Shown: positions 6,326 through 56,193 of the stretch, one piece after another
Layout of the letters: each line of letters opens with the position of its first letter
Numbering within the stretch: position 1 is the stretch's first letter
Source of the DNA: Paenibacillus azoreducens
Lineage (GTDB): Bacteria; Bacillota; Bacilli; Paenibacillales; Paenibacillaceae
DNA: 64,000 bases
NCBI RefSeq assembly: GCF_021654775.1
Contig: NZ_AP025343.1
Span: 1,827,501 to 1,891,500 of the forward strand
Direction of reading: 5' to 3'
Made by a program: the position numbers and the translations under genes
The notes under the pieces: generated by a model
Told to the model about the DNA's origin: nothing
The model's database searches: none
Seen by the model: only the letters and a program-made list of their open reading frames with translations

Positions 6326-6943
6326 CTAATGAATCATTTGCTGGATGATATCATGTTTTACATACCCTTTAAGGATCCCCTTTAATACAGCTTGGGCTCT
6401 ATTGCTTGCGTCAAGTTTATAAAAGATATTGCTTATGTAATAGGAGACTGTTCTATTGCAGATATGCAGGGATTTAGCTATCTCCTTGTTTGAAAGGCCA
6501 AGCGTTATGCACTCCAGCACCTTTTGTTCTTGACTTGATAAGCTGTTTTCCGAACTCCTGAGATTGGAAATTTTGAATTGACTGTAAACCATTGTAATTG
6601 TTTTATATATGTCGGATATTTCAACTTCTTTCGTAAGGAATGCATCGATTCCGCCAATGTTTTTATTGTATAAGTGGTAGTTCTTATCAATGGCTAGCAA
6701 AATGATTTTTAAATTTGGGAATGTGCTTTTTAGATTCATAAAGGAGACTTTGAGACAGATTTCTAAATCAAATTCGAAGATAAGTACATGCGGGTTGTAA
6801 ACTCGAATGGCCTCTATAGTACTTTGCTCGGATTTGTATTTACAGGAAGTCACTTTCAAATTGTCTTTTTCCTTCAAATAATTTTGTAATGCCCACAGAA
6901 AAATTCCCCCTACGCCTATTGTCATAACTGAGATACTATTCAA
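6326..6943 (-). CDS. LuxR-type regulator with atypical receiver
   Basis: A 205-residue protein with a NarL/LuxR helix-turn-helix at about residues 133-195 (SSQEQKVLECITLGLSNKEI... then CNRTVSYYISNIFYKL). The N-terminal part has the length and secondary-structure rhythm of a receiver, but the phosphoacceptor position in VLIFEFD is Glu57 and the N-terminal acidic pair is missing; the Lys in FLTKE is present. It is therefore probably phosphorylation-independent (inference). The ribosome site GGAGGAG precedes the ATG. The gene is much more AT-rich than the flanking core genes, which suggests transfer. It converges on the immunity kinase; any regulatory link is speculative. Confidence 0.8.
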   Translation of the reverse strand: MNSISVMTIGVGGIFLWALQNYLKEKDNLKVTSCKYKSEQSTIEAIRVYNPHVLIFEFDLEICLKVSFMNLKSTFPNLKIILLAIDKNYHLYNKNIGGIDAFLTKEVEISDIYKTITMVYSQFKISNLRSSENSLSSQEQKVLECITLGLSNKEIAKSLHICNRTVSYYISNIFYKLDASNRAQAVLKGILKGYVKHDIIQQMIH

Positions 6944-7820
6944 TTCTTTACTCCTCCTCTTTAATTTTTTCTATAGTATCTGTTAAAAATAGTGGGTTAT
7001 TTTTTTTGGTTTAAATATTAGCAGTTAGTAGATTTAGAGGGTTTTCTTATTATATTAATATTATATTTTAAATCGCTTACAATTTCTAGGACAATTATAA
7101 TTATTTAATTTTTTTGTTATAATATGTATTTTTTGAATTGCAAGGAAATATACGAAGGTAACATATACGATTGCCCGCGTAAGCAAGCATAGCATCACGC
7201 TAACCTATTAAAGTATGCAAATCTGCATCCTATTTCAGCAAAATCACCGCTTTACATGGAAAAACCTGCAAATGGAATCAACTTTATAATGAACATTTAC
7301 GGGTGTTTGCACAGTGGCATTATAAAATGATTTTTGAAGTCGTTTTTTTGGATTTTAGTAAAATCCTACATACAAAAATGACTGGCTGTTCCATTTGGAA
7401 AGTTGCAAAAGTGCATCTATTTTAGCGCTCCAGGTAACTATGGCTAGAAAGCTTGCAATAGTGCATCTTTTCCCCAGCTTTTAGACATAAATAGACGATT
7501 CATAGTCAAATGGATGCACTTTCGCAACAATTTTCCATTTCACGCTATAAAAGGCCTGAAATGGATGCACTTTCGCAACATTTTTCCTTTTCACATGATC
7601 GGCTGTCGTCTGAAAAAGCTTGCGCCCTGAATCGATTTAACAATGATTGATATCGAGTATTTAAACCTGCGTAGTGGCCAACCCGTAAAAACTATGGAAT
7701 AATGAAAAACTTCAAAAGAGGGGTCCCTTTTACGGAAGGTGACTCCTTTAGTGATTTTGTGGTACGTTATATGAGGCTAGGTCACCTAAAACAGAAGTTC
7801 AAGGAAAGAAGGGAAATGTT
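6944..7820. other. AT-rich intergenic stretch
   Basis: About 880 bp without a convincing gene. The first 200 bp are extremely AT-rich and probably hold the promoter of the leftward LuxR-type gene. The remainder holds the dyad repeat element at 7402-7579 and a related GCAAATCTGCATCC sequence near 7218-7230. A reading frame at 7702-7929 overlaps the DUF1904 gene in another frame and has no supporting features. Confidence 0.6.
7402..7579. repeat. Four-word dyad element, GTTGCAAAAGTGCATC type
   Basis: Two copies of GTTGCAAAAGTGCATC (7402-7417; variant CTTGCAATAGTGCATC at 7452-7467) are followed by two reverse-complement copies GATGCACTTTCGCAAC (7513-7528 and 7564-7579). Same-orientation copies are 50 and 51 nt apart, and the inner and outer pairs share one dyad centre near 7490. 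The layout matches the elements at 21952, 40254 and 56009, although the word itself differs. Confidence 0.8.
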
Positions 7821-21809: not shown

Positions 21810-22270
21810 AACGGTTAACGTTTTTAAAGCTTTTTGACTGTCCGCGGCGGCTTGGGTTCCAGGCTGCCGTGTTTTTGGAGGACGTCGGGAAACGGTGAAT
21901 TCGGACATATCGACTGCGTTGGGATCGCATGAATAGATCGCACACTAAACTCTAACGGACATAGCGGCCGCTATGAAGGGCAATTTTGACTATTATGATT
22001 TCTAACGGACACAGATGCAGCTATTTGGTGGAAAAGCATACTTTTGCCCGTGTTTCGGAGCAGTTAAGCGCTGTGGTGTCCGTTAGAATTCCAAAAGGGC
22101 TGTTTTTAGCGGATTAGCGTCCGTAGTGTCCGTTAGAATAACGTTGAGGCTTGCGAATATTCGCACATTGCTTAGCAGGACCAGCACGATGGAAATCAGC
22201 ATAACGTTATGCATCAATCTGAATTCTCGTACATATTGAAGCATTTTTGAAGAATCGGGGGAGCTAAGTT
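21810..22270. other. Gap between rdgB and ASCH gene
   Basis: About 460 bp, mostly filled by the dyad element at 21952-22136. Nothing else recognisable is present apart from the ASCH ribosome site GGGGGAGC. Confidence 0.6.
21952..22136. repeat. Four-word dyad element, CTAACGGACA type
   Basis: CTAACGGACA occurs at 21952-21961 and 22002-22011. Its reverse complement TGTCCGTTAG occurs at 22077-22086 and 22127-22136. Steps are 50, 75 and 50 nt, and both pairs share the dyad centre 22044. It is homologous to 56009-56193 and has the same geometry as 40254-40438. Confidence 0.9.
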
Positions 22271-39236: not shown

Positions 39237-39301
<65 letters not shown>

Positions 39302-39310
<9 letters not shown>

Positions 39311-39681
39311 TAAAGCAAGCCACTCATTGGAGTGGCTTTTTTTCATTAGAGGGATTCGAACCGGGTTCGTCGGAGCAAAGGCATCGTTAGGGTAACTTCG
39401 CAGTCAGCCCGAAGGGGTGTACCCCGACCTGGGACGTAGTCAAGCCACTCATTGGAGTGGCTTTTTTCATTAGAGGGATTCGAACCGGGTTCGTCGGAGC
39501 CTAGGCATCGTTAGGGTACCATCGCAGTCAGCCCGAAGGGGTGTATCCCGACCTGGGACGTGGTATTCACTCATTGGAGTGGCTTTTTCATTAGAGGGAT
39601 TCGAACCGGGTTCGTCGGAGCATAGGCATCGTTAGGGTACCATCGCAGTCAGCCCGAAGGGGTGACTCCTGAGCAGGGACG
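39302..39681 (+). repeat. tRNA-linked tandem repeat, three units
   Basis: CCTGGGACG, the last nine bases of the tRNA, recurs at 39428-39436 and 39552-39560 and in altered form at 39673-39681, giving units of 126, 124 and 121 bp. Each unit contains the hairpin CCACTC-ATTG-GAGTGG with a T-run, GAGGGATTCGAACC (antisense to the tRNA T-arm), and GCAGTCAGCCCGAAGGGGTG. The first hairpin serves as the tRNA terminator. Confidence 0.9.
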
Positions 39682-39720
39682 CCAGGCCACCGGTATTTTT
39701 ACGATTGGTCTTCGCATGCC

Positions 39721-40253: not shown

Positions 40254-40438
40254 CTAACGAAACTGGGTAGCGTTATTTCGAGGAAACCGAAGCCGATTTA
40301 GATTTAACGAAACTACAGAACGTTATTTGGACGAAATATGCCCGAATGAGCCTCATTTGAGCTGAATAGCGTTTCATAGTTTCGTTATAAATTTTAGAAG
40401 CTTATTTTTGTCCAAATAACGATTGTAGGTTTCGTTAG
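40254..40438. repeat. Four-word dyad element, YTAACGAAAC type
   Basis: CTAACGAAAC (40254-40263) and TTAACGAAAC (40304-40313), then GTTTCGTTAT (40379-40388) and GTTTCGTTAG (40429-40438). Steps are 50, 75 and 50 nt with a common dyad centre at 40346, exactly as in the element at 21952. The word differs. Confidence 0.9.
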
Positions 40439-40460: not shown

Positions 40461-40550
40461 AGGGGATTCGAACACGGGTTAAGTCTGAGCATAGACATCG
40501 GTAGGACAAAATGGCAGTCAGCCCGAAGGGATGTACCAAGGCCTGGGACG
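40461..40550 (+). repeat. Distal partial copy of the tRNA-linked repeat
   Basis: It contains GGGGATTCGAACACGGGTT, GCAGTCAGCCCGAAGGGATG and CCTGGGACG (40542-40550), the same order as in the tandem array at 39302. It is separated from the array by the toxin locus and the dyad element. Confidence 0.75.
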
Positions 40551-40756: not shown

Positions 40757-41467
40757 TCATTCCATCAACCCTAATGCTTCGTAGATCTTTTCGGAAACAA
40801 CTCCATTTCGCGGCAATTGCTGATCCCGCTGGAAATTCATCAGGGCACGGGTGGTAAGGGGTCCAAATTTACCGTTGGTTGCCCCCGTAAAATATCCGGC
40901 ACTCTTCAGCCGGGATTGAATAAGCTGTACATCTGCTCCGACATCCCCTTCGGCGAGCCGCTTCGGATGGTGATTCAGATCCCCTAAAACATGACCGTAG
41001 ATCGTAACTTTTGTCCCCAGAGGAATCATCTCGTATAAATCCATGACATCCCTGTTGAACATGCGTATACAGCCATGACTCTGGTGTTGGCCGATGGAAT
41101 AGGGTCTGTTTGTTCCGTGAATTCCATAACTTCCCCAAGGCACGTTTAATCCGAGCCATCGTGGACCAAAGGAAGGCCCCCAATTTTTCCCCTTGTACGT
41201 GATGATGTATTCTCCAACGGGAGTTGGTGTGGATGGGTTGCCGACCGCAACGTGGTAGGTTTTGATTTTCTTCCCTTGTTTCCACACAACCAGTTTGTGT
41301 TGAACCGGATAAACATCAATAGAGTAAACCGATTCATAGTTAACGATGGGGAGCGATGGATCGGCATGGGCAGAAGTAAACGAGCCGGCGAAAAATAAAA
41401 CCAGGATGGACATATTAACGTTTTTTAAGAAACGATGGAACGTTTTCCTAGTCATCATCATATTCAA
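40757..41467 (-). CDS. L,D-transpeptidase with peptidoglycan-binding domain
   Basis: A 236-residue secreted wall enzyme. Signal peptide at about residues 1-35 (basic start, SILVLFFAGSFTSAHA), YkuD catalytic domain at about 45-165 with IHGTN and SHGCIRM, nucleophile C133, and a C-terminal peptidoglycan-binding domain (GDVGADVQLIQSRLKSAGYF). It forms 3-3 crosslinks or attaches proteins to peptidoglycan. It is a stand-alone gene with its own terminator. Confidence 0.9.
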   Translation of the reverse strand: MNMMMTRKTFHRFLKNVNMSILVLFFAGSFTSAHADPSLPIVNYESVYSIDVYPVQHKLVVWKQGKKIKTYHVAVGNPSTPTPVGEYIITYKGKNWGPSFGPRWLGLNVPWGSYGIHGTNRPYSIGQHQSHGCIRMFNRDVMDLYEMIPLGTKVTIYGHVLGDLNHHPKRLAEGDVGADVQLIQSRLKSAGYFTGATNGKFGPLTTRALMNFQRDQQLPRNGVVSEKIYEALGLME

Positions 41468-56008: not shown

Positions 56009-56193
56009 CTAACGGACACAGTTGACGCTAATGTAGGCAATTTCGACCATTGTGATTTCTAACGGACACAGCTGCAGTTATTTAGTGAAAAAACTCGCTT
56101 TTGATGGTGTTTATGAGCAGTTAAGCGCTGTGGTGTCCGTTACATTTTTAAAATAGCTGTTTTTAGCCATTTAACGGTCGTGGTGTCCGTTAG
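56009..56193. repeat. Four-word dyad element, CTAACGGACA type, second copy
   Basis: CTAACGGACA at 56009-56018 and 56059-56068; TGTCCGTTAC at 56134-56143; TGTCCGTTAG at 56184-56193. Steps are 50, 75 and 50 nt. It is homologous over its whole length to 21952-22136 and lies inside the IS remnant. Confidence 0.9.

Follow-up and report, generated by a model that had tools for sequence, protein, structure and literature searches.

We analysed a 64,000-nucleotide stretch of the Paenibacillus azoreducens chromosome (the window; contig NZ_AP025343.1, positions 1,827,501 to 1,891,500), which is part of one 7.3-Mb contig. The element at 40254..40438 and its relatives, each carrying four similar words in a fixed frame (tetrads), are probably binding platforms for a cognate DNA-binding protein whose recognition helix would read all four words. 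Proteins from genes adjoining such elements seem to recognise the word through two or three amino acids. The architecture, the concordance of words within an element, the gene linkage and the correlation of residues with words were all obtained by sequence analysis.

The 40254 tetrad, listed without strand on the basis of word positions, the spacing scan and genome matches, carries the AAAC word over 185 bp. Its TAACGAAAC words lie at 40254-40263 (+), 40304-40313 (+), 40379-40388 (-) and 40429-40438 (-). These positions confirmed the 50/75/50 steps and the total of 185 bp given in a preliminary description, and the frame proved to be common to this AAAC element and two GACA elements of the window. 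TATTTGG was likewise present behind the second word. The word had been given as YTAACGAAAC, which held in that four copies are present, but the third copy, ATAACGAAAC, starts with A and not with Y. Single words are no evidence for an element, since YTAACGAAAC with at most one mismatch occurred 10 times in the window, with 8.2 expected. Bases 7 and 17 covaried as complements (0.48 vs 0.30 expected), which gives every unit the look of a quasi-dyad some 21 bp long (word positions 2-22). Based on the sequence, the axis and this covariation, the units were placed at 40255..40275 (unit 1, +), 40305..40325 (unit 2, +), 40367..40387 (unit 3, -) and 40417..40437 (unit 4, -); unit centres of the tetrad are 50/62/50 apart. 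The neighbouring gene, which has the tetrad on its 3' side, encodes an L,D-transpeptidase (YkuD + PG_binding_1; 40757..41467, -). On the other side of the element lies a tRNA gene (39237..39310, +), the sole Rfam match in the whole window at the gathering threshold; the tetrads were unmatched. A direct repeat of about 85 bp (TTCGAAC..GAGCATAG..TAGG..CAGTCAGCCCGAAGGG) flanks the element at 39600-39690 and 40464-40550, and pieces resembling it were also seen beside some other AAAC elements.

The two GACA tetrads (CTAACGGACA), at 21952..22136 and 56009..56193 (no strand assigned), have the same steps and were recovered both by the pattern and by a word-agnostic scan. Their word is TAACGGACA, with GTAACGGACA as the third word of the 56009 element, which has a 93% copy, flanks included, elsewhere in the genome. 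The word-agnostic scan accepted any four matching 9-mers at the tetrad offsets and covered this spacing and its ±1 neighbours. It scored the three elements of the window at 54, 51 and 49; no other place in the window exceeded 36, and window shuffles (one shuffle per spacing) did not exceed 34. A probable fourth tetrad with a GTGCATC word (TTGCRAAAGTGCATC; 7403..7579, no strand assigned, steps 50 and 51) scored 36, at the edge of the background, and was the only tetrad with this word in the fetched DNA of the window's genome. The frame was also found with other words in other species. In P. sacheonensis (L223), a tetrad with the word AATAAGTGCA-N4-TGCACTTATT scored 46. Genome G013, which has zero TAACG tetrads at up to 2 mismatches, has two tetrads with drifted CGGAC words (scores 41 and 39) and two more with the words TTAGTTGTA..TACAGTTAT (35) and TTAGGGAA..TCCCTGATT (37); the latter two scored near the shuffle ceiling of 36 and therefore rest on their visible dyads. 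The scan found no tetrads in 200 kb of genome G006 or in 100 kb of each of three other genomes.

Genomes were searched with the pattern TAACG-N45-TAACG-N73-CGTTA-N45-CGTTA, and the reversed pattern served as control. With up to 3 mismatches, the window's genome gave 121 tetrad matches vs 1 for the control. Among the 295 genomes from this family, 133 had tetrads at up to 2 mismatches, with 0 or 1 control match in each genome, and copy number in related genomes ranged from 0 to 190; at up to 1 mismatch, 143 of 392 genomes of the order had matches. An exact scan across the collection found tetrads in at least 118 stretches, and those listed all come from Paenibacillus, Cohnella, Fontibacillus, Saccharibacillus, Gorillibacterium or unnamed Paenibacillaceae. 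Same-strand TAACG pairs were 50 apart 242 times and 49 or 51 apart 13 times, and the inner TAACG-CGTTA span measured 83 bp in 83 cases and 82 bp in 21; part of these stretches had been picked by the exact pattern, a choice biased towards exact spacing. In gapped DNA searches, matches of full length covered 181-186 bp.

Word concordance was assessed on exact-core elements (84 from the window's genome and 130 from other species), keeping only those of 185 bp and removing redundancy at 85% identity, which left 44 and 111 elements, respectively. Positions 2-6 are fixed by the search pattern and thus lie outside the measure. In the other species (n=111), bases 7-10 agreed at 0.80-0.87 within an element, in every one of the six word pairs, vs 0.41-0.43 between elements (z 17-20); in the window's genome (n=44), the values were 0.95-0.98 and 0.59-0.63. 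Positions 7-10 showed a strong excess of agreement; the excess was weaker at 11, 14-20 and 22-25, and positions 26-50 had none. The code-like word identity proposed earlier thus survived the comparison within and between elements that had been suggested for it, at bases 7-10, both in this genome and across species. The accompanying claim that all four copies change together stood as a strong tendency and not as an absolute rule: across the 111 elements, all four codes were alike in 35, three of four in 38, fewer agreed in 33 and none in 5. In the window's genome, the four codes were identical in 33 of 44 elements, and three of four agreed in the other 11.

In the hunt for a partner, stop-to-stop frames of at least 80 aa were clustered in 253 element-bearing stretches. 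One ORF family hugged the elements, lying within 300 bp at 9 of 10 loci (median 218 bp); larger ORF clusters had a median distance above 1 kb. The preliminary description had suggested looking for DNA-binding proteins of variable specificity in the same genomes, and this family beside the elements is a candidate. We then considered 70 gene loci picked by protein (30 automatically and 40 by hand, mostly from multi-copy genomes), seven genomes without TAACG tetrads being included. A tetrad lay 3' of the gene at 48 of the 70 loci, within 320 bp in 46 of these 48, a proportion that may overstate family-wide linkage because the profile was built from linked members. In the fetched DNA, a tetrad was present on either side at 52 loci, on both sides at 10 and on neither at 18; three of the seven genomes without TAACG tetrads nevertheless had a tetrad whose words had drifted. 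In contrast, none of 19 loci matching pieces of the 56009 region and none of the five Y1 transposase loci of the window's genome had a tetrad within 1.5 kb. Partner protein matches were found in 244 of 295 family genomes, often several per genome. A strong homologue (E <= 1e-60) was present in 97 of 104 genomes with at least 5 tetrads vs 69 of 191 with fewer (Fisher 1e-23, kinship ignored), and seven of the 104 had none. In the window's genome, a single close homologue is encoded at 5582132-5582803; its gene lies upstream of a GACA tetrad, at a distance of 228 bp, and its helix has Arg192 and Arg196, as predicted. A 36-residue remnant lies near a GACA tetrad.

The partner is about 220 aa long. 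Its N-terminus is related to DUF559/Vsr and its C-terminus is a winged helix; the C-terminal domain gave a structural match to a winged-helix DNA-binding domain. Its 746 homologues are named 'transcriptional regulator' or hypothetical in databases. The partner fell below every Pfam cut-off, and no family in NCBIfam, PHROGs or PADLOC matched it convincingly; for DUF559 (PF04480), neither any of nine A1 members nor P0002 reached the cut-off. A sequence search of solved structures gave nothing below E 0.2. In a comparison with the PD-(D/E)XK nuclease fold, strands and helices of the N-terminal model followed the order alpha-beta-beta-beta-alpha-beta, and this domain alone, a model of low confidence, had no match in a fold search. 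In 118 scored homologues, the ExK lysine site held Gln (71) or His (47) and never Lys. The DUF559-type paralogue kept the lysine in 104 of 104 scored proteins. One distant paralogue of this type in the window's genome (L375, 5554368-5555012), with ExK and a winged-helix-like C-terminus, passed DUF559 at 22.8 bits (cut-off 20.6) and had no tetrad nearby; paralogues of this type are widespread in Paenibacillaceae (820 homologues).

Protein identity predicted the code of the adjacent element (Mantel r 0.475, p 2e-4; 32 of 44 gene-element pairs after de-duplication). The closest protein from a different genome agreed in code at 0.72 vs 0.41 for random pairs, and same-genome paralogue pairs agreed at 0.5 or less in 11 of 12 cases. 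Residues were numbered on the match from the window's genome, and the recognition helix was placed by alignment to the model. A blind ranking of 193 variable columns for signal beyond overall identity placed columns 192, 188, 196, 201 and 191 at the top, and these lie inside or just before the recognition helix.

The code table was built from 49 distinct loci, each having a clean tetrad on the 3' side. Words with G at base 7 had Arg192 (23), Asn192 (8) or Gly192 (1), words with A at base 7 had Gln192 (9) or other residues (4), and words with C at base 7 had Gln192 (4). Thus Arg192 went with G7 in 23 of 23 cases and occurred in 22 of 23 GA words, Gln192 went with A or C at base 7 in 13 of 13, and Asn192 with GT in 7 of 8, the exception being GACT. 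Further exceptions were Gly192 with GTTA and the A-words, 4 of 13 of which lacked Gln192. Among protein-DNA contacts, Arg-G and Gln-A are classical. At base 9, C went with Arg196 in 13 of 13 cases. Residue 196 was Ser, Asn, Asp, Glu or Tyr for GAA words, Val, Ile or Thr for GTT and Ala for CTT. Base 9 was less cleanly read, because AAA words also had Arg or Lys; Arg196 occurred in AAA words and in one AAT word as well. Three tests of the code at 75% protein de-duplication (n=21) gave p values of 0.0025, 3e-5 and 0.004, for residues selected on the same data as used in the tests.

The window's genome yielded no protein of the AAAC type, although the AAAC word occurs in 61 of the 117 relaxed tetrads of its fetched DNA, the 40254 element included. 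Decay of this orphan class was expected and was not clearly seen: perfect words made up 0.86 vs 0.81 for GAC, and mean mismatches per word were 0.29 vs 0.22. These tetrads may owe their lack of a protein to recent gene loss, may be served by another protein or may persist for some other cause.

The mechanism that we propose is as follows. Each quasi-dyad unit of about 21 bp would bind one protein, which is probably dimeric, and all four units in their fixed 50/62/50 geometry would be occupied jointly. The recognition helix would read the bases following TAACG, residue 192 reading bases 7-8 and residue 196 helping with base 9. On this proposal, the four words would be alike because one protein must fill all four sites, and differing words would mirror paralogues with differing helices. 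An element mostly adjoins the gene on its 3' side, and since elements lacking a gene are dispersed as in REPIN/RAYT, we propose that the protein disperses or maintains them in trans. Physical binding, dimerisation, joint occupancy and dispersal by the protein are what we infer.

Several explanations would do without a binder. One is that the copies evolve in concert through gene conversion, slippage or template switching, an idea offered in part in the preliminary description; the words are direct and inverted repeats inside 185 bp, and tandem duplicated tetrads exist, as this explanation would have it. A structured RNA or terminator, in which base pairing keeps the words alike, would fit elements lying 3' of genes whose outer and inner word pairs fold as a long hairpin. 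However, code agreement in the non-pairing combinations 1-2 (0.83) and 3-4 (0.84) was like that in 1-4 (0.86) and 2-3 (0.80). The equality of the six pairs and the lack of excess agreement at positions 26-50 speak against unit duplication, slippage, conversion and simple stem pairing. The same footprint recurs in many unrelated elements, and helix residues of a protein follow the word, which also speaks against conversion or slippage, so that this mechanism is disfavoured and we consider it highly improbable. As for the RNA, positions 11-16 agreed less in 1-4 than in 1-2 in the window's genome and no Rfam match fell on the tetrads of the window; pairings 1-3/2-4 could in principle yield an equal agreement pattern, and overall a role of base pairing is very unlikely. 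The cognate binder, the other mechanism named earlier, gains support from the linked DNA-binding family and from helix residues that track the word. It is conceivable that this correlation reflects linked inheritance, the gene and its adjacent element being copied together without recognition, and the correlation of identity with code does rest on gene-adjacent elements. That explanation predicts a correlation with the whole protein, whereas the signal beyond identity sits in residues 188-201. Distant proteins (45-58% identical) alike at residues 192 and 196 had identical codes in 4 of 4 pairs, whereas protein pairs differing at both had a mean code identity of 0.26 (107 pairs). Moreover, in eight genomes with Arg192 or Gln192 strong hits (G101, G117, G133, G141, G149, G156, G221 and G230), unlinked words compared by eye mostly had base 7 as predicted, among the words listed, with single exceptions in G141, G221 and G230; this comparison leaves out G184, G201 and G012. 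We therefore regard linked inheritance alone as unlikely.

The tetrad could also serve the host, as an architectural, insulating or transcription-boundary complex 3' of genes that is not moved, and this deserves serious weight although we rate it as less than likely. By a simple purpose-made gene caller, none of the 84 elements of the window's genome lay inside called genes; 35 were in convergent, 43 in tandem and 2 in divergent gaps and 4 were unplaced, and gaps of at least 50 bp in the same stretches numbered 63, 160 and 45, respectively. In four orthologous pairs, unit positions outside the fixed cores were 93% identical (299/320, that is 379/400 minus 80 fixed core bases), spacers 86% (291/340); in the 100-bp flanks, 74% of the bases that could be aligned were identical, and gaps took up 160 columns. 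The replacement of the catalytic lysine by Gln or His in all 118 scored homologues also suits a host role. Yet the 3' position fits insertion tolerance as well, and the absence of indels in the orthologous pairs is partly selection, because all eight loci came from the exact-spacing scan. A fixed host function also sits poorly with copy numbers from 0 to 190 among related genomes, with tetrads that adjoin the partner gene, at 10 of 70 loci on both sides, and with the absence of the 56009 tetrad from the 19 related loci, which match the query only partly (1.5 kb examined). An orthologous element was seen in a viral-collection contig (L233) that is colinear with this chromosome across several genes: its words are mixed (GGTT, GGAT, GGTT, GGAC), and those of the window's genome are three GGAC and one GGTC.

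Dispersal by a Y1 (RAYT) transposase, as for REP/REPIN repeats, would account for extragenic, palindromic, dispersed repeats with several classes per genome, but the five Y1_Tnp matches of the window's genome had no tetrad within 1.5 kb and another family has; we regard it as extremely improbable. Returning to the binding-platform proposal, dispersal by the partner itself is called into question by the missing ExK lysine, and neither a target duplication nor an empty site was found. In the flanks of 84 elements of this genome and 128 others, no direct repeat of 3-12 bp stood clearly above shuffled flanks, and the copies may be old, with the target duplication lost. The fuller reading is an undescribed dispersed-repeat system of Paenibacillales, in which a diversifying, DUF559-derived, ExK-less winged-helix family would read the code behind TAACG by two or three residues of the recognition helix, fill the four sites and disperse the tetrad in trans. 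The system would then parallel REPIN/RAYT without a Y1 transposase, and its word classes, about ten in number, would form a natural series. We hold this reading close to an even call, slightly on the doubtful side.

As described in PMC3116915, REPIN/RAYT comprises dispersed extragenic palindromic repeats in several classes, each with its own adjacent gene. The tetrads are likewise extragenic, palindromic, dispersed and present in many copies. However, they consist of four TAACG-word sites in a 50/62/50 arrangement and not of a GTAG/CGTC-type tag or REP doublet, and their movement is a proposed one. With a partner other than a Y1/HUH transposase, the tetrad system lies outside REPIN/RAYT. Like bacterial MITEs (bcr1, RUP, NEMIS, ERIC), tetrads are short, non-coding and numerous with inverted ends, but they belong to no recognised MITE, lack a convincing target duplication and have inner words as conserved as the ends. 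The partner resembles DUF559 (PF04480), related to Vsr-like endonucleases, through its homology to the Paenibacillaceae paralogue above the cut-off, but is itself below it and has ExQ or ExH in place of ExK. In Tn7, TnsA has an endonuclease-like domain followed by a winged helix, and the transposon ends carry several sites of about 22 bp that are read by TnsB. The domain order of the partner and the several sites of similar length in the tetrad are alike to these. Among the matches listed, the open-access PMC literature gave no paper on these repeats or the partner, and a term search of PMC12306157 and PMC3733652 turned up no mention of Paenibacillus. That a repeat can come with a cognate gene is already known; what appears new is that an element of four sites is paired with proteins of this family.

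If the proposal is correct, the REPIN/RAYT problem, that of a repeat and a cognate chromosomal gene persisting together, would have been solved a second time in an unrelated way, and there would be a role for hundreds of proteins named 'transcriptional regulator' or hypothetical and for repeats numbering up to 190 per genome. The element-protein pairs would form a natural specificity series for the winged helix (Arg-G, Gln-A/C and Asn-GT at one residue), so that the recognition code would be testable by swaps of single residues and single words.

Some further features of the flanks and spacing were observed. A fixed longer repeat unit was considered and set aside, because homology past 185 bp was one-sided or variable in length and present in some copies only. 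A tail of about 90-140 bp starting with AAGCCCGCATGACCTCACGG lies on one side only of 9 elements of the window's genome (e.g. 465903, 2757634 and 4535109), 3 of them AAAC and 6 GACA elements. Tetrads 6694125 and 7153006 share a 2-kb stretch of 98.7% identity and seem to adjoin two rRNA operons (rRNA inferred from frames); a transposon reading of this repeat was rejected, since the shared stretch reads as antisense rRNA frames by an IMP-dehydrogenase-like ORF, partly masked. The tetrads 5154574 and 5154818, which lie 244 bp from each other, differ in their words (GACA and AAAC), and in the other close tetrad pairs one word was common to both members. In P. sabuli (L230), seven tandem 50-bp units starting with GCGCAAAATG were found at 6844-7193, and their step equals the 50 bp of the tetrads.
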